From: Chryseobacterium sp. BLS98
GTDB lineage: Bacteria; Bacteroidota; Bacteroidia; Flavobacteriales; Weeksellaceae
DNA length: 64,000 nt
Reading direction: 5' to 3'
Assembly (NCBI RefSeq): GCF_001045445.1
Contig: NZ_LFNF01000002.1
Span: 62,001-126,000 of the forward strand
Below are positions 4,535-13,132 of the stretch, in pieces (positions within the stretch are counted from its first letter, which is position 1; every line of letters begins with the position of its first letter). The translations under genes and the position numbers were made by a program. The notes below the pieces were generated by a model that did no database searches, had not been told where the DNA came from, and saw only the letters and a program-made list of their open reading frames with translations.

Positions 4535-6766
<2,232 letters not shown>

Positions 6767-6786
6767 TTCCTGAATTGATACAAATG

Positions 6787-6813
6787 AAAGCTCCTTTTTT
6801 AAGGAGCTTTTTT
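6787..6813 (+). terminator. Intrinsic terminator of icd
   Basis: A 10-bp perfect stem (6787-6796 with 6801-6810) and T run directly behind icd. Confidence 0.85.
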
Positions 6814-6941
6814 ATTTAAATGCTTTTATATATTTCAAAGGTCTTCTGTAGACTCCCAATCGGTCATTTAAGCAATAATTTCCCAGATGTCCTGCAATAT
6901 TCCGTAGGTTAAGTTTCTTCTTTGCCCTTAAAAATTCCATT

Positions 6942-7009
6942 TTCACCGTTTGATTTGTCCGGTTCGCCTACCTTTACATTTCAAAATTTCCTTTAAGCCT
7001 ATACTTTTG
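6942..7009 (+). promoter_or_regulatory. Promoter with conserved upstream element (copy A), P460 operon
   Basis: TTCACC (6942-6947), TTTGTCCGG (6954-6962) and TTCGCC (6963-6968) lie upstream of a -7 box TACTTTTG (7002-7009) with TTC 19 bp before it. The same set recurs at the same spacing before the DUF1223 gene (10433-10500). TTCACC and TTCGCC are direct repeats 21 bp apart, the spacing expected for two LytTR half-sites. Binding by the regulator at 9636-10397 is inferred. Confidence 0.55.
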
Positions 7010-7030
7010 AGCCATAAAAATAATATCGTT

Positions 7031-8011
7031 ATGGACTCATCAAAGAAAAAAAGAACAGCAAAGCCAATAGCCATCATATTTCTGGCGGTTATGGCAATAT
7101 TTGCTGCCTTACAGCTTTTCAACCCACCTCTGGAAGGAAAGCCTGTAGCCAAAAAAATTGAAGCCCCACAGGAAGTGCTTGCCATCCTGGAAAATTCATG
7201 CTTTAACTGCCACTCCAATGAACAGAATTTAAGCTGGTATGATAAGGTGGCTCCTATTTCATGGGCTGTGAACAAAGACGTTAAGAGAGCAAAAGAAGTT
7301 TTAAACTTTTCGGAATGGAATGTTTCTCCGGCCGAGCACCAAGGGAAGATGTATGCCATTTTAAATATGATGCAAAGCGGAAAAATGCCGCTTCATGAGT
7401 ATACTCTGCTCCATCCTTCAGCCAAAATAACCCCAAAAGATATCGAAACGATCAGAAAATACACCCTTTCATTATCCGGCCTCAATACGGTTAAAGAAAA
7501 AAAAGATCCGCATCAAAATATTGAAATCAGCCAGGGTTCTGTTCCATCCAAATTTCCTGTTTCGCCCAACGGCGTAAAGTATACGGATGATTTTAAAAAC
7601 TGGAAAGTGATCAGTATGAGCACCCTTTTCGACCACTCCATCAGGGTTATTTATGGAAATGATATGGCGGTAAAAGCTGTTGAAACGGAAAATTTTCACC
7701 CCTGGCCGGACGGAAGCGTTATTGTAAAATCAGTTTGGAAGCAGGAACAATTGGCAGACGGAGAAGTGAGAGCCAGGGAATTTATCAATGCTCAATTTAT
7801 GGTGAAAGACTCTAAAAAATATACAGATACAGAAGGTTGGGGATTTGCCAAATTTTCAGGAAATGATCTTCATCCTACCGGTAAAACAGCCTCATTTGCA
7901 AAAGAATCATGCATCGCCTGCCATCGGCAGCTGGCTGAAAAAACAGGATATCTGTTTGATGTCCCAATGAAAGTCAATACTGAAAGATTAATTAAAAACC
8001 TTGAGAAATAA
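7031..8011 (+). CDS. Di-haem protein: haem-binding domain plus cytochrome P460
   Basis: A 326-residue periplasmic protein anchored by one N-terminal membrane segment (about residues 12-30). Two c-type haem motifs are visible: CFNCH at 57-61 inside an N-terminal haem-binding domain (EVLAILENSCFNCHSNEQNL, then YDKVAPISWAV), and CIACH at 294-298 near the end of a cytochrome P460 domain. P460 proteins elsewhere oxidise hydroxylamine or detoxify NO-related compounds; here the electron partner is unknown. The frame is open further upstream, but the ATG at 7031 gives a proper membrane anchor and lies 22 bp past the -7 box. It overlaps the next gene by one base (taATG), so they are translated together. 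Confidence 0.85.
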   Translation: MDSSKKKRTAKPIAIIFLAVMAIFAALQLFNPPLEGKPVAKKIEAPQEVLAILENSCFNCHSNEQNLSWYDKVAPISWAVNKDVKRAKEVLNFSEWNVSPAEHQGKMYAILNMMQSGKMPLHEYTLLHPSAKITPKDIETIRKYTLSLSGLNTVKEKKDPHQNIEISQGSVPSKFPVSPNGVKYTDDFKNWKVISMSTLFDHSIRVIYGNDMAVKAVETENFHPWPDGSVIVKSVWKQEQLADGEVRAREFINAQFMVKDSKKYTDTEGWGFAKFSGNDLHPTGKTASFAKESCIACHRQLAEKTGYLFDVPMKVNTERLIKNLEK

Positions 8012-8451
8012 TGAAAAAAGCACTATTCACCACCTTGTCAATCTGCGCTTTGTTTACTGCCTGTAAAATTGATGAACCGGATAAAGATTTAAAGCGTATT
8101 GTTTTTGACCCCGGAGATTTAAAATTTATTTCCACCTCATTAAATACCCAAAAGGAAACTTCATCCGCACTGTATGGCAACCCGCAGGCCCTGGCATCAT
8201 TATCAAGCGGAAAACCTGACCTGGAAAACAATTCTATTATAAAACTGGTTACCTGGAAGTACCATGACAATCCGCAATACACCGGAGGAACGATTACCGG
8301 AGAGTTACTTAGTGTAGAAACACTTCAGGCTGATAATAAGGGGAAAATTTCCTATCAGATCACGAATACATCAGCCACGGCACCTGTGGCATCTGATAAA
8401 GAAGAACGGATACGGTATATCATAAGCTACAAGCCTGTCTTGAGACCTTAA
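8011..8451 (+). CDS. Lipoprotein of unknown function, partner of P460 protein
   Basis: A 146-residue predicted lipoprotein. The signal MKKALFTTLSICALFTAC ends in a lipobox with the acylated cysteine at residue 18, followed by KIDEPDKDL. The mature part is small, polar and without cysteines. It includes SKFISTSLN-like and VTWKYHDNPQYTGGTITGEL stretches but no domain I recognise. Its start overlaps the stop of the haem protein by one base, so the two form a tight operon and probably act in the same periplasmic process. It is followed by a strong terminator that isolates the pair from the histidine kinase gene. Confidence 0.75.
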   Translation: MKKALFTTLSICALFTACKIDEPDKDLKRIVFDPGDLKFISTSLNTQKETSSALYGNPQALASLSSGKPDLENNSIIKLVTWKYHDNPQYTGGTITGELLSVETLQADNKGKISYQITNTSATAPVASDKEERIRYIISYKPVLRP

Positions 8452-8491
8452 AAACTACTGAAGCTGAATTTCTCAGCTTCAGTAGTTTTTG
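8451..8491 (+). terminator. Strong intrinsic terminator of the P460 operon
   Basis: A perfect 17-bp stem (8451-8467 with 8473-8489) ending in a T run, starting in the stop codon of the lipoprotein gene. Confidence 0.9.
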
Positions 8492-8638
8492 TGAATAATC
8501 AATTTTTACCTGTGCAAAGCCAATAGTTAATTTTTCTAAGCGAAAAAAATTCACAGACAAAGCGAATTCACTTTTAAACATTCACCATTATATTTCTAAA
8601 AAAGCATTAATTTCACCTTTTAAAACCTCACTGTTTTC

Positions 8639-9655
8639 ATGCAGCAGCAAAAAATAAAAATTTCACCAGCCATCATCTGGATAAGTTCCTTGTTCCTGGG
8701 AATTTTATCTTCTGTACCCCAGCTGGCCTCCCATGAGTTCAACTGGAAGGAAGCTGTGGTAAATTCAGCAATAACGGCGGCATTTTCCATCATAATGTGG
8801 TATCTCAATATTTATTTCTTAAACCGAAGTGAAGGCAAACGGAGACAGGATATTTCGTATTCAAGGCTGCTGACTGTGCTGGCATTCGGAATGGTGATCA
8901 TGTTCGGGCTCGCCTGGATTCAGCAGCTCATTCTGTCCCATATCAATTTTGGACCTGTGATGCTGATGGTGGAAGTCCGTGGAATCCTGATCAATCTTGT
9001 ATGTTATATGTTTCTGACCCTGCTTCAGAATAACTATGCAGGCCAGCAGATTCAGCTGGAGCTGGAAAAAGTGAAAAGTGACAATCTCGGGGCCCAATAT
9101 GAATTACTGAAACAGCAGGTAAATCCCCATTTTCTTTTCAACAGCCTGAATACTTTAAAATCGATGGCAGAGACCCATGATTCCGAGACGGTAGACTTTA
9201 TCATTAAACTTTCTGACTTTTACAGATTTACACTTGAAAGCAGAAAACTCGACCTTATCACGGTGCAGGAAGAAATGAAAATCATAGAGGCTTATCTTTT
9301 TCTTCAGAAAGCACGTTTTGGCGAAGGAATATCATTTACAAATGAGCTTAAAAATGAAGACCTTAAGACTCTCATCCCTCCTTTTACCCTGCAGCTTCTG
9401 GTAGAAAACTGTATCAAGCACAATATTGTATCCCAAAGCAAGCCACTTCATATCAGAATCTACAGCTCTGAAGACAGAATTGTTATTGAGAATCCTATTC
9501 AGCGGAAAATTGCAGCAGAAGAATCTTTAGGTGTAGGCCTTGATAATATAAAAATGCGTTTCAGCCATCTGCTGGATCAGGAAATAGAAATATATTCAGA
9601 CGAAAAAACTTTTCAAATAAAATTACCTTTGATCCATGAATATCATCATCATTGA
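8639..9655 (+). CDS. LytS-type sensor histidine kinase
   Basis: A 338-residue membrane histidine kinase of the His_kinase (PF06580) class. Four hydrophobic segments lie at about 12-32, 42-62, 77-99 and 108-130. A short coiled linker follows, then the phospho-acceptor motif QVNPHFLFNSLNTLKS with His164. A compact ATPase domain ends the protein (LLVENCIKHN, then GVGLDNIKMRF). There is no extracellular sensor domain of note, so the signal is probably read within the membrane. The last 20 bp overlap the regulator gene at 9636, so both proteins are made together as a two-component pair. The neighbouring redox genes on both sides share a promoter element and are likely targets. Confidence 0.92.
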   Translation: MQQQKIKISPAIIWISSLFLGILSSVPQLASHEFNWKEAVVNSAITAAFSIIMWYLNIYFLNRSEGKRRQDISYSRLLTVLAFGMVIMFGLAWIQQLILSHINFGPVMLMVEVRGILINLVCYMFLTLLQNNYAGQQIQLELEKVKSDNLGAQYELLKQQVNPHFLFNSLNTLKSMAETHDSETVDFIIKLSDFYRFTLESRKLDLITVQEEMKIIEAYLFLQKARFGEGISFTNELKNEDLKTLIPPFTLQLLVENCIKHNIVSQSKPLHIRIYSSEDRIVIENPIQRKIAAEESLGVGLDNIKMRFSHLLDQEIEIYSDEKTFQIKLPLIHEYHHH

Positions 9656-10397
9656 AGACGAGTTTAGGGCGGCAAAATCCCTCCAGAACCTTATTTTAGA
9701 TTTAAAACCAGAATCCAGAATCCTAGGAGTTTATGACAGTATTGAGGCCAGTGTTGAAGCTTTATCTGCCAATATACAGCCGGATCTTATTTTTATGGAT
9801 ATCCAGCTTTCTGACGGGTTGTCGTTTGAAATCTTTAAAGCGGTCGAGATTACATGCCCAGTGATTTTCTGTACTGCTTTTGACCAATATATGCTGGATG
9901 CCTTCAAAAGCAAAGGAGTGGATTATGTACTGAAACCTTTTTCCCGTGAAGATATTTCCGAAGCCCTGAAAAAAGTCGATGAGTTAAAAAAATTCTTCAG
10001 CAAAAATGAATTTCCCGATATTGGATCTCTTTTACAGAAAATAACCCAGCCTGAGGGTAAAAGCAGCTTTCTTGTTTTCAAAAATCAAAAATATACCACG
10101 ATTGCTACCGAAAGTGTTGCCTATTTCTATATCCATAATGAAATTACCCATCTGGTTACATTTGATAAGGAGCAGTTCCAGCTCTCGCAGTCCCTCGGGC
10201 AGGTCGCTGAGCAGGTTTCCGGGAAGCAGTTTTTCAGGATTAACCGCCAGTATCTGGTTAATTTCAAAGCAATCAAAGAAATGGAACATTATTTTCAGCG
10301 TAAAATTCTGGTAAAACTGGTGACTGAAACTCCTGAAAAGCTCCTGATCAACAAAGAAAAAACGCATAGTTTCTTTACCTGGCTGGAAGACCGTTAA
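9636..10397 (+). CDS. LytTR-family response regulator
   Basis: A 253-residue regulator. The N-terminal receiver domain has the acidic pair EDE near residue 7, the phosphorylated Asp55 in LIFMDIQLSDG, and the lysine in DYVLKPFS. The C-terminal LytTR DNA-binding domain spans about residues 145-250 and contains QFFRINRQYLVNFKAIKEME. LytTR proteins bind pairs of ~9-bp direct repeats on one face of the helix. It overlaps the kinase gene by 20 bp. Candidate operators are the repeated elements at 6942-6968 and 10433-10459 before the flanking redox genes. Phosphorylation by the adjacent kinase is established for the family and inferred here. Confidence 0.92.
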   Translation: MNIIIIEDEFRAAKSLQNLILDLKPESRILGVYDSIEASVEALSANIQPDLIFMDIQLSDGLSFEIFKAVEITCPVIFCTAFDQYMLDAFKSKGVDYVLKPFSREDISEALKKVDELKKFFSKNEFPDIGSLLQKITQPEGKSSFLVFKNQKYTTIATESVAYFYIHNEITHLVTFDKEQFQLSQSLGQVAEQVSGKQFFRINRQYLVNFKAIKEMEHYFQRKILVKLVTETPEKLLINKEKTHSFFTWLEDR

Positions 10398-10432
10398 GGT
10401 TAATGTATTTTTTAAGCCTGTATGTTTCCGGG

Positions 10433-10500
10433 TTCGCCTTGCTTTTTGTCCGGCTGACCCTTTTTTATATTCTTTTGCCTTTAAAATGAATCTACTTTTG
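10433..10500 (+). promoter_or_regulatory. Promoter with conserved upstream element (copy B), DUF1223 gene
   Basis: TTCGCC (10433-10438), TTTGTCCGG (10445-10453), CTGACC (10454-10459) and the -7 box TACTTTTG (10493-10500) repeat the layout found before the P460 operon with exactly the same internal distances (offset 3491 throughout). The -33 region is weak, as expected for an activated promoter. Confidence 0.55.
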
Positions 10501-10517
10501 AATCAAATTTAAAAGTT

Positions 10518-11294
10518 ATGATTCTAAAAAATCTATTTACCGTAAGTGCTTTTACCACTTTGATGTTTGCTGCTTCTGCATTTATACACAAAGAGGAGAT
10601 GAAGAAAGCGGAGCCAGCTTTTCCTTCTGAAAACCATGGATTTGCCGTTATGGAACTTTTCACTTCCGAAGGCTGTTCAAGCTGTCCACCTGCTGATGAG
10701 CTGATGGGACAGATCGGAAAAGAATACCAGAACCGGCCGGTTTATATTCTTTCATACCACGTAGACTACTGGAACCGCATGGGATGGAAAGACAGGTTCA
10801 GCAGCGCAGAAAATTCCCAACGCCAGCAATTGTACAGCCGCCTTCTTCAGTCGCAGACTTACACTCCGCAGCTCGTTGTGAATGGAAAGGAAGAATTTGT
10901 GGGTTCTGATAGGAATTCAATAGAAAATGCATTACAAAATGTATTGTCTGATGCTAAAAACAGCTCCATAAGTCTTTCAGCAAACATTTCACACAAAACT
11001 ATTGATGTAAGTTATAAAACTGCTAAAACTGATCCTCAAAACAAATTACTCATCAGCCTGATTGAAAAGAAATCATCAACCCAGGTGGGAGGAGGTGAAA
11101 ATGAAGGCCATCACCTTCAGCATTGGCAGATTGTCCATCAGCAAAATTTGGTCTCACTTAAAGACAACCCGGAAGGGTCAACGAATTTTAAACTTCCTGA
11201 GAATTTCTCTCCCAGCAACTGGGAAGTCATCGGGTTTGTTCAGAATCTGAAAACAGGAAAAATTTCAGGGGTTTCGAAAACAGCAATTCAATAA
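10518..11294 (+). CDS. DUF1223 thioredoxin-fold secreted protein
   Basis: A 258-residue protein with an N-terminal hydrophobic segment (about residues 4-22) that should act as a signal or anchor. The DUF1223 core begins GFAVMELFTSEGCSSCPPAD, with a CxxC pair at Cys53 and Cys56 in a thioredoxin-like context. YHVDYWNRMGWKDRFSS follows and then TYTPQLVVNGKEEFVGSD, both family signatures. The fold and motif suggest a periplasmic thiol or redox role, but the reaction is not known. Its promoter carries the same upstream element as the P460 operon, placing it in the presumed regulon of the LytS/LytTR pair just upstream. Length is normal for the family. Confidence 0.88.
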   Translation: MILKNLFTVSAFTTLMFAASAFIHKEEMKKAEPAFPSENHGFAVMELFTSEGCSSCPPADELMGQIGKEYQNRPVYILSYHVDYWNRMGWKDRFSSAENSQRQQLYSRLLQSQTYTPQLVVNGKEEFVGSDRNSIENALQNVLSDAKNSSISLSANISHKTIDVSYKTAKTDPQNKLLISLIEKKSSTQVGGGENEGHHLQHWQIVHQQNLVSLKDNPEGSTNFKLPENFSPSNWEVIGFVQNLKTGKISGVSKTAIQ

Positions 11295-11443
11295 ATCCTG
11301 CTGGAAAATTCAGGACTTAAGTTTTTACAATTCAAAAATACTTTTTATAGCACTAGAATTCAATTTTTTATAAAATGAATGCCTTAGTATTTCTAAACAC
11401 GATTATTCAACAAACAACAACAAAATTTTAAAATAATAAAACA

Positions 11444-11836
11444 ATGAAAACAAAAACAACAAAAATCATCTACTGGTCAGGAGCAATTTTTATGTCATTA
11501 TGGTTTGGAGCAAGCGGCTTTTTTGAGCTTACCAAAAATCCTGTGGTTTGGGACATCACACGACAGCTTGGTTATCCGCCTCATTTTATTTATATCCTTG
11601 GTGTATTCAAACTGTCCGGAGTCCTGGTGCTTCTCCTGCCCAACCGTTTACTAAGACTAAAAGAATGGGTATTTGCCGGAATGTTTTTCGATATAATCTT
11701 TGCTTTCTTTTCCAAAATTGCAGTGCTTGGGTCTGCAGCCACTATTGATGCGGTAGTTGCCTTCATCGTACTTTCTGTAACCTATATCATGTTCAGAAAG
11801 CTGTATTCTCCTGACCTTATTTTTGGAGAAGCGTAG
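11444..11836 (+). CDS. DoxX family membrane protein
   Basis: A 130-residue inner-membrane protein with four hydrophobic helices (about 8-28, 48-66, 74-94 and 98-118). The sequence FGASGFFELTKNPVVWDIT and LGVFKLSGVLVLLLP match DoxX/DoxX-like proteins of Bacteroidota. DoxX members are small tetraspanning proteins linked in other bacteria to quinone or thiol redox balance, but most, including this one, are untested. The gap of 149 bp from the DUF1223 gene contains a weak hairpin (about 11296-11320). It may be in the same unit or have its own promoter. The copied upstream element of the flanking redox genes was not seen here. Confidence 0.82.
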   Translation: MKTKTTKIIYWSGAIFMSLWFGASGFFELTKNPVVWDITRQLGYPPHFIYILGVFKLSGVLVLLLPNRLLRLKEWVFAGMFFDIIFAFFSKIAVLGSAATIDAVVAFIVLSVTYIMFRKLYSPDLIFGEA

Positions 11837-12139
11837 CAGGAGCCGGCTTTGAGATGCTTACTTGAAGGTTAGAAATTCCGAATCTCTTACATGCCCTGCT
11901 TCCAATTCAGTAAAAATGTGACCACATTTGCAGAGAAAAATTCAGACGATCAGTTTTGATCAACTGATCATAATAAAAATTCTATTTATGTTTCCCCCAA
12001 TCAGGTAATATTACTTTTTCATTTTCTACGGGTATATTCCTTTGGTTGGGGATTTCAATCAACAAATCCTCCCGGAAATGGGAGGATTTATCATTAAAAC
12101 TATGTCGTAGAAAATTTAAGTTGAATCCGTTAGTGAATA
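11837..12139. other. Gene-free interval between DoxX and MBL genes
   Basis: It holds two hairpins: an 8-bp stem made of gatcagtt and aactgatc (about 11949-11970) and a 10-bp stem at 12064-12089. Neither is followed by a clear T run. Forward and reverse genes converge here. I see no convincing small gene. Confidence 0.5.
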
Positions 12140-13132
12140 TTAGTTCATAAAAATCTCCGGAATCCATTCAAAAGCCGCATCCTTTTTCTTGGTAAAGCCA
12201 AGGCCCGGCCACGGAAGATGATATGCAAAAGCCTTGGTTCTGGTATCTGCCAGCTGATTAAGTAATTTCTTACGGGATTCCGCAGCAATATCCAGATCTG
12301 TATCTCCTGAAAATCCCCATTCAGGGTGTGGGAAAAGAATAATATCAGAGTGGATCAGGTCTGCAATATACATCAGCTTCTCAGTGCCTGAAGAAATCAT
12401 CATGACCGTAAGGCCGGGTGTATGTCCCGGAGCCAGCTGAAAACTGAAATGTTCAAACAAAGGCTTTTTAAAATCATAAAATTTCAGCTTTGGACGGATG
12501 GTTTTCAGAATATTCTGAACAGGCGGAATGATCTGGTTAAGGAATTCCGGCTGATTCTTTAAAAAACTGTTTTTAAAATCTTTAATGGATGCCTGCAGCC
12601 AGAAATCATATTCAATTTTGGAGATATGGAAATCTGCATTGGGAAAAACCAGATTATTCTGTTTATCTACTATCCCGCCAATGTGATCGGGATGAGCATG
12701 GGAAATAAAAACATCTGTAATATCTTTTGGAGAAAATCCGGCTTTCTGTAAGCTTTTCAGGATAAATCCTGTTCTTTCATCTGCAAAGATCCCCATCCCG
12801 GCATCCAGTAAAATAAGCCTGTCTTTTGTTTTGACGAGCATTAGGTTCATCGCCATGTCTATAGAGTCGTCGGAACGGAAATTATCCCTTAAAATTGTTT
12901 TTAACAGGGAAATATCTGCTCTTGGGGCAAATGTATCGACGCTTTTCTCGTGAATGTATCCGTCCGTAAGAATGAAAAGTTCCAGCTCACCAAATTTTAT
13001 CTTTTTAAATGCCGAAAGATCTTCCTCAGTATTGGGCGGAAGTATTTTGGCACCTGCAAAAACATCAGAAAAAGGGACAAAGCTTAATGCTCCGGCCATC
13101 AGTCCACTTTTTAAAAGTTCTCTTCTGTTCAT
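12140..13132 (-). CDS. Exported metallo-beta-lactamase-fold hydrolase
   Basis: A 330-residue MBL-fold enzyme. The N-terminus MNRRELLKSGLMAGALSFVP has a twin-arginine-like signal (RRELLK followed by a hydrophobic stretch), so folded export is likely. The metal-binding motif HAHPDH (in VFISHAHPDHIGG) is intact, with a later histidine in LAPGHTPGLTVMM and an aspartate in MYIADLIHSD, giving a two-zinc site. General layout resembles methyl-parathion-hydrolase or lactonase-type members; the substrate cannot be stated. The ATG at 13132 was preferred to a TTG two codons upstream. A terminator separates it from the reductase gene upstream, so it is transcribed alone. Confidence 0.85.
   Translation of the reverse strand: MNRRELLKSGLMAGALSFVPFSDVFAGAKILPPNTEEDLSAFKKIKFGELELFILTDGYIHEKSVDTFAPRADISLLKTILRDNFRSDDSIDMAMNLMLVKTKDRLILLDAGMGIFADERTGFILKSLQKAGFSPKDITDVFISHAHPDHIGGIVDKQNNLVFPNADFHISKIEYDFWLQASIKDFKNSFLKNQPEFLNQIIPPVQNILKTIRPKLKFYDFKKPLFEHFSFQLAPGHTPGLTVMMISSGTEKLMYIADLIHSDIILFPHPEWGFSGDTDLDIAAESRKKLLNQLADTRTKAFAYHLPWPGLGFTKKKDAAFEWIPEIFMN

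Follow-up and report, generated by a model that had tools for sequence, protein, structure and literature searches.

A promoter element shared by a P460 operon and a DUF1223 gene is associated with a LytTR response regulator in Chryseobacterium and other Bacteroidota

The window analysed here is a stretch of 64,000 nucleotides (C2:62001-126000) from a Chryseobacterium-like genome of 4.4 Mb. One locus in it encodes, in this order, a P460/Haem_bd di-haem protein, a P460-like lipoprotein, a PF06580 histidine kinase (HK), a receiver-LytTR response regulator (RR), a DUF1223 protein and a DoxX_2 protein. On either side of the HK/RR pair lies a promoter, one for the P460-lipoprotein operon and one for the DUF1223 gene, and the two share one extended element. 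Which protein reads this element? The initial annotation, made from the letters of the window, proposed that the pair encoded between the two promoters controls both. Judging from genome comparison, we consider it quite probable that the LytTR regulator directly binds and activates the two promoters.

The shared element and its conservation

On the P460 side, TTCACC (6942-6947), TTTGTCCGG (6954-6962) and TTCGCC (6963-6968) precede the -7 box TACTTTTGA. On the DUF1223 side, TTCGCC (10433-10438), TTTGTCCGG (10445-10453) and CTGACC (10454-10459) precede the same box. Direct reading reproduced exactly what the initial annotation had described: every element is offset by 3491 bp between the two promoters, TTTGTCCGG and the -7 box are 48 bp apart at both, and the outer hexamers are 21 bp apart. 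Over stretches of 76 bp, 40 of the 76 positions are identical without a gap. The paired direct repeats that it had proposed are present, but they are better drawn as 9-mers 12 bp apart (CATTTTCAC/CCGGTTCGC and CGGGTTCGC/CCGGCTGAC) than as hexamers. The second 9-mer is followed after 10 bp by a -33-like element (ATTTC or ATTCTTTTG), and 48 bp separate the spacer TTTG from the -7 box. In Flavobacterium psychrophilum, the sigma-A -7 box reads TAnnTTTG (PMC9723704). Published LytTR operators consist of 9-bp repeats, mostly with a 12-bp gap and with a bias to 10 bp before the -35 element (PMC6193735). The 9-12-9 arrangement found here, 10 bp upstream of a -33-like element, agrees with that layout, as had been claimed for the spacing. 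A pair of 9-bp direct repeats separated by about 12 bp ahead of a promoter is the operator form of LytTR two-component regulators, and the element here has this form.

Profile R2 (34 bp) was built from sites of other genomes, with the window excluded. On the 4.4-Mb genome it ranked the two window sites at the top (E 8.8e-6 and 1.6e-5), and the next match had E 0.47. Because a profile made without the window ranks both sites first genome-wide, they are not a product of chance. The genome-wide search that the initial annotation had suggested thus gave two significant sites only, those before P460 and DUF1223. No significant operator lies before the HK/RR pair, since these two sites, neither of them there, are the only ones below E 0.4 genome-wide; none was found upstream of the DoxX_2 gene in this genome either.

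The syntenic set comprised 57 loci, namely the cassettes of 56 genomes of the genus and the window; the divergent L092-L095 were excluded. The order P460-lipoprotein-HK-RR-DUF1223 is conserved across all of them. Absence of the element upstream of orthologues had been named as grounds for refutation; instead, both promoters have TTTGTC, allowing a single mismatch, 48 bp ahead of the -7 box in 57/57 loci. It is exact in 53/57 (P460) and 56/57 (DUF1223), the remaining five having one mismatch, and the full TTTGTCCGG is exact in 30/57 and 47/57, respectively. The element columns hold 1.1-2.0 bits of information, and columns 33-46 hold 0.35 (P460) and 0.82 (DUF1223) bits. The -33-like region of the P460 promoter (columns 24-29) has a mean of 1.60 bits, compared with the 0.35 bits of columns 33-46.

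The element and the regulator across genomes

Genomes of the genus were called regulator-positive at a regulator identity of at least 80%, or 56% in G042. This gave 63 of 148 genomes: 61 with a full-length regulator, G056 with a partial copy, and G042. P460 (at least 55% identity) and DUF1223 were found in the same 63 genomes. Profile R1 (76 bp, built from 48 sites of regulator-positive genomes) matched at E <= 1e-5 in 62/63 regulator-positive and 0/85 regulator-negative genomes. The exception was G042, with a best match of 6e-4; the best match among the 85 negatives was 4.3e-4. Since R1 comes from regulator-positive sites, the positives are partly so by construction, and the absence in the 85 genomes is the real test. 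Weak sites can escape the genus scans, in which the filters were stricter and 47 or 32 candidates were scored in each genome. Strong sites (E <= 1e-5) also occur in five further regulator-positive genomes (at least 80% identity) outside the footprint of the syntenic set, namely G117, G070, G030, G131 and G056 with its partial copy. Weak matches were examined in five regulator-negative genomes, G061, G102, G116, G132 and G135 (E 4.3e-4 to 0.003); they lie across open reading frames and were taken to be chance. Sites of similar score in G045, G051 and G147 adjoin other LytTR pairs and were classed as variants rather than as the element itself. In G147, an operator-like site (L150) is flanked by a divergent HK/LytTR pair on one side and by a gene for ketoacyl-ACP synthase III on the other.

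Contigs were then scanned around the best 80 of 207 regulator loci with a 34-bp matrix from all 114 sites (threshold 12), which does not include the -7 box. All 10 Chryseobacterium loci were positive, with 20 sites, each with its box at +48. Among regulator orthologues at 49-68% identity (Flavobacterium, Pedobacter and others), 29/44 loci carried the element, with 55 sites, and the reverse-read control gave 3 sites in these 44 loci. For LytTR regulators below 45% identity, the same scan found the element in 0/26 loci. T[AG]nnTTTG was located at +48 for 36 of the 55 distant sites (22/44 loci), at +47 for one, at +49 for one and elsewhere for 3. As the -7 box is outside the matrix, its fixed position is an independent check. 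Two genomes of another genus of the family (L203, L204) have the cassette with both sites. The phylum-wide profile R3, run on 25 whole genomes, gave 23 matches at E <= 1e-5. Of these, 21 are at the regulator locus, many of them being in the profile. The other two are unlinked, on other contigs and outside the profile, and precede genes named by sequence likeness: in Sphingobacterium prati the gene is epoxide hydrolase-like (E 4.7e-8), and in Pedobacter steynii it is cupin-like (E 1.8e-7). Four control genomes, whose scanned LytTR locus is below 45% (an orthologue elsewhere is possible), had best E values of 0.004-0.08.

Is the element tied to the regulator or to the gene? P460 paralogues that have no regulator of the orthologue group beside them had sites in 0/14 loci (L168-L173, L176-L182, L208), several of which have a weak regulator match (26-33%) nearby. 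P460 paralogues beside regulators at 50% identity retained a weakened element, for example TTTGTCCGATTGATC. A second LytTR clade (35-38% identity) carries TTTCACC...TTTAGCAGGTTCACC-like repeats, with TACATTTG at +48, directly after the regulator gene. Its members L146-L149 were found via the profile. Second-clade sites also occurred at L186, L189, L195, L201 and L202, among 20 regulator loci picked regardless of sites; L201 fails the strict pattern, and L192, also among the 20, has a related site after its regulator. Behind the site of L146 are a DUF4890-like gene (just under the Pfam cut-off) and a hydrolase-like gene. G070 and G016 have both operator kinds, each adjoining its own regulator, and by the leaf order of the regulator tree the loci with sites belong to the orthologue clade and to the second group. 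We regard this regulator-linked distribution (paralogues, second clade and tree) as the best evidence, comparative in kind, that a LytTR protein would read the element. Together with the counts in the genus and beyond, it supports the proposal that the LytTR pair controls both promoters.

Some further sites were observed at related loci. L192 has a second element (L192:317) with TACTTTTG at +48. At the LytTR loci L183:641 and L185:5224, a TTTGTCCGTTTCCGC-type element with TACATTTG at +48 is found about 1.2 kb upstream of the HK match.

Proposed regulation and competing explanations

We propose that the membrane histidine kinase would switch the LytTR response regulator, which would bind both 9-bp direct repeats, across their 12-bp spacer, on the same face of the DNA just upstream of the -33 element. 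The bound regulator would activate the sigma-A promoters of the P460-lipoprotein operon and the DUF1223 gene, perhaps upon a signal of redox or electrophile type. In other Bacteroidota, the orthologous pair would control an overlapping set of envelope and detoxification genes. Since the P460-lipoprotein unit is closed by the terminator-like hairpin (8450-8490), transcription of the kinase/regulator pair is probably separate. Because the pair follows this hairpin and has no significant operator upstream, it is probably not autoregulated through the element. Autoregulation by this route was rejected on the latter ground.

Several observations weigh against this proposal. Direct binding and activation are predicted from comparison. 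At threshold 12, no site was detected at 15/44 distant orthologue loci, of which six are from Mucilaginibacter, three from Chitinophaga, two from Dyadobacter and single ones from Pedobacter, Filimonas, Paraflavitalea and Xanthocytophaga. The orthologue-bearing genomes G315, G319, G320 and G322 have best E values of 0.0099-0.08, no better than the controls, and the element is missing at P460 paralogues whose neighbouring RR is 43-44% identical. The two operator kinds overlap, and the element is not exclusive to the orthologous regulator: L146 and L147, next to regulators of 35-37% identity, reach scores of 20.8 and 18.4 with the same matrix. The upstream flanks are also fairly conserved (0.96 and 0.81 bits), which means that conservation extends beyond the element, and the 57 syntenic loci are a single lineage. 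Profiles R1 and R3 include sites of many genomes on which they were run. Within the genus, regulator and targets always co-occur and are therefore inseparable. The spacer TTTG, the most conserved part of the operator, is absent from the published passages on the repeats that were consulted.

Some of these points would suit another transcription factor, encoded elsewhere, that binds the element while the LytTR pair is a mere neighbour. The comparative basis of the binding, the conservation of the spacer TTTG above that of the repeats and the 15 distant RR loci without a site all lean that way. However, the element tracks RR orthologues across families, the 85 RR-negative genomes of the genus all lack it at E <= 1e-5, and a separate LytTR clade carries its own variant beside the RR gene. 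We believe that such a factor is quite unlikely. The likeness of the promoters could also be a frozen duplication, kept by descent without a shared regulator, and their identity at 40 of 76 positions in one ungapped alignment would fit this. But the elements have been held while columns 33-46 diverged, and several unrelated gene families in different parts of the phylum have the element ahead of them; a frozen duplication is hence extremely unlikely.

Direct activation by the LytTR regulator also has to be weighed against binding with the opposite outcome. The sign of regulation is unreadable from sequence, and AgrA represses bsaA from a site downstream of the bsaA promoter (PMC4227749). Here, by contrast, 10 bp separate the end of the operator from the -33-like element downstream of it, and the operator overlaps neither this element nor the -7 box. 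HdrR (PMC6193735) and AgrA at P2/P3 (PMC4227749) activate from upstream repeats. Repression is thus unlikely.

Predicted target proteins, proposed regulon and related systems

The coordinates of the features are collected in Table 1. The regulator matches PF00072 (E 1.3e-11) and PF04397 (E 1.8e-15) in Pfam, and its closest named relative among the best 80 of 207 loci is 94% identical, from Chryseobacterium herbae. The hallmark of LytS-type kinases is the 5TMR-LYT sensor region. For the kinase, Pfam at E <= 0.001 gave His_kinase PF06580 alone, without such a region, and the earlier label LytS is loose. The HK leader (8595-8638, TTAATTTcACCtttTAAAA) looks conserved among orthologues and contains a single TTTCACC; it is probably the HK promoter. 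An RNA element was dropped as an explanation, since Rfam gave no match above the gathering score in 5000-12500.

Table 1. Operators, promoter elements and genes of the locus, with positions in the window
Feature	Position	Strand	Basis or remark
P460 operator: 9-bp repeats CATTTTCAC (6938-6946) and CCGGTTCGC (6959-6967), 12-bp spacer including TTTG (6954-6957)	6938..6967	+	Kept in 57/57 syntenic loci
P460 -33-like element ATTTC, 10 bp past the second repeat	6978..6982	+	-33 role putative
P460 -7 box TACTTTTGA	7002..7010	+	Direct read
Di-haem protein, Haem_bd (PF14376) and cytochrome P460 (PF16694), two CxxCH, start ATG	7031..8011	+	Pfam, alignment
Lipoprotein, P460/cytochrome c'-beta-like predicted fold, without CxxCH	8011..8451	+	Pfam, structure model
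Terminator-like hairpin, 18-bp perfect arms, closes the P460-lipoprotein unit	8450..8490	+	
Membrane histidine kinase (PF06580)	8639..9655	+	Pfam
Response regulator, receiver and LytTR (PF00072, PF04397); proposed operator-binding protein	9636..10397	+	Pfam, comparison
DUF1223 operator: CGGGTTCGC (10429-10437), 12-bp spacer including TTTG (10445-10448), CCGGCTGAC (10450-10458)	10429..10458	+	Kept in 57/57 syntenic loci
DUF1223 -33-like element ATTCTTTTG	10469..10477	+	Role putative
DUF1223 -7 box TACTTTTGA	10493..10501	+	Direct read
DUF1223 protein, thioredoxin fold, CSSC conserved	10518..11294	+	Pfam, structure match, PMC3091736
DoxX_2 membrane protein	11444..11836	+	Pfam

The first predicted target is, as annotated, a di-haem P460-like protein with Haem_bd and P460 domains. 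Its P460 domain matches Methylococcus capsulatus cytochrome P460 (6hiu) with E 1.3e-30. The lysine aligned with chain position 78 of 6hiu and both CxxCH are kept in 60/60 loci; Lys78 of the M. capsulatus protein is the residue cross-linked to the haem. The protein thus has the CxxCH and aligned lysine of a cytochrome P460 by sequence, the cross-link itself being predicted. In two genomes with the rest of the cassette present, the P460 match has an internal stop (G111:C1:376309-377271) or is split over two frames (G293:C1:2680419-2681383). The P460-like lipoprotein adjoins the di-haem protein in the syntenic loci. Its model has a mean pLDDT (predicted local distance difference test score) of 78 and matches P460/cytochrome c'-beta (Foldseek E 9.2e-5, Z 9.9, root-mean-square deviation 3.6 over 106 residues), and this haem-less protein may be a partner or a ligand sensor. 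The DUF1223 protein, annotated as a CxxC thioredoxin-like protein, matches structure 2axo (E 8.9e-30) and keeps its CxxC in 58/58 sequences, in line with the thioredoxin fold of DUF1223 (PMC3091736).

With a slightly looser rule, 58 sites were obtained in 30 distant loci. The genes behind 55 of them belong to eight families: alpha/beta hydrolase (17), DoxX_2 (12), cupin (12), DUF1223 (5), P460 (4), OsmC (2), epoxide hydrolase (2) and another alpha/beta-hydrolase-like protein (1). The families were sorted by short shared peptides, with Pfam on examples of the first seven. All 12 DoxX sites, in Flavobacterium, Pedobacter, Filimonas and Mucilaginibacter loci, have CAnnTTTG at +48 in place of TAnnTTTG. 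Within the genus, seven regulator-positive genomes have a site of a third kind, with E values from 5.8e-8 to 4.4e-4, of which the weakest do not rise above background. It precedes an alpha/beta hydrolase gene in G075, G144, G043, G139 and G046, with an OsmC gene behind in the first three, and lies directly before an OsmC gene in G115 and G131. G046 has an additional weak site before an epoxide-hydrolase-like gene. These genes were assigned by Pfam for the G075 pair and by sequence likeness for the others. The regulon of P460, lipoprotein and DUF1223 proposed by the initial annotation was too narrow, as DoxX, cupin, OsmC, alpha/beta hydrolases and epoxide hydrolase are candidates too. Together with P460 and DUF1223, the OsmC, DoxX, cupin and epoxide hydrolase families may point to stress of the envelope redox, electrophile or nitric oxide/hydroxylamine type. 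A role in nitrosative or thiol stress is plausible because the P460 lysine and two CxxCH are conserved and DUF1223 has a thioredoxin fold.

Three known systems are comparable. The cytochromes P460/c'-beta of Methylococcus and Nitrosomonas share the P460 domain, the lysine at position 78 and CxxCH with the protein here, which differs in two ways: its P460 domain is joined with another haem-binding domain, and the next gene encodes a lipoprotein with a P460-like predicted fold but no CxxCH. The targets of Staphylococcus aureus AgrA belong to Agr quorum sensing, unlike the system here, and the promoters here are of the TAnnTTTG sigma-A kind, unlike those of AgrA. AgrA is likewise a two-component LytTR protein, binding as a dimer to two direct repeats upstream of promoters (PMC4227749). 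The LytTR regulatory systems (LRS) HdrRM/BrsRM of Streptococcus mutans share the LytTR domain and direct repeats of 9 bp, which in most cases have a 12-bp gap and often lie 10 bp ahead of the -35 element (PMC6193735). They pair a LytTR protein with a membrane inhibitor and are autoregulated, whereas the HK/receiver-LytTR pair here has no significant operator of its own. The LRS feature of an operator before the regulator's own operon was not found here, where the terminator-like hairpin precedes HK/RR.

In F. johnsoniae coevolved with Burkholderia, a neighbouring HK/LytTR pair was mutated in 5/5 replicates, in the HK in 3 and in LytTR in 2 (PMC10197871). Compared with the orthologue in F. johnsoniae CI04, the reference bases differ at LytTR nucleotide 46 (G -> C) and HK nucleotide 496 (G -> T) and agree at nucleotide 44. 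With two of three bases mismatching, though the strain differs, that pair was treated as another one. As the initial annotation had supposed, no description of this operator or regulon was found among the papers listed in searches of an open library, nor an operator defined for any Bacteroidota LytTR regulator; subscription papers were outside the search. The term DUF1223 occurs in two papers of that library, one of which, PMC3091736, deals with the fold.

We lean slightly towards the wider view that several HK/LytTR families of Bacteroidota share an operator code (9-12-9, spacer TTT, 48 bp to the -7 box), the family here being a phylum-wide regulon of envelope and electrophile/nitrosative stress. 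LytTR regulators give many matches per genome of the genus, and if this view is true, the targets of many orphan LytTR systems would be readable from sequence. The fixed place of the operator relative to the unusual TAnnTTTG promoter leads to direct testable predictions, including in F. johnsoniae. The little-characterised DUF1223, DoxX_2 and haem-less P460-like lipoprotein would be joined into one response, for which the operator would offer a reporter for signal discovery.

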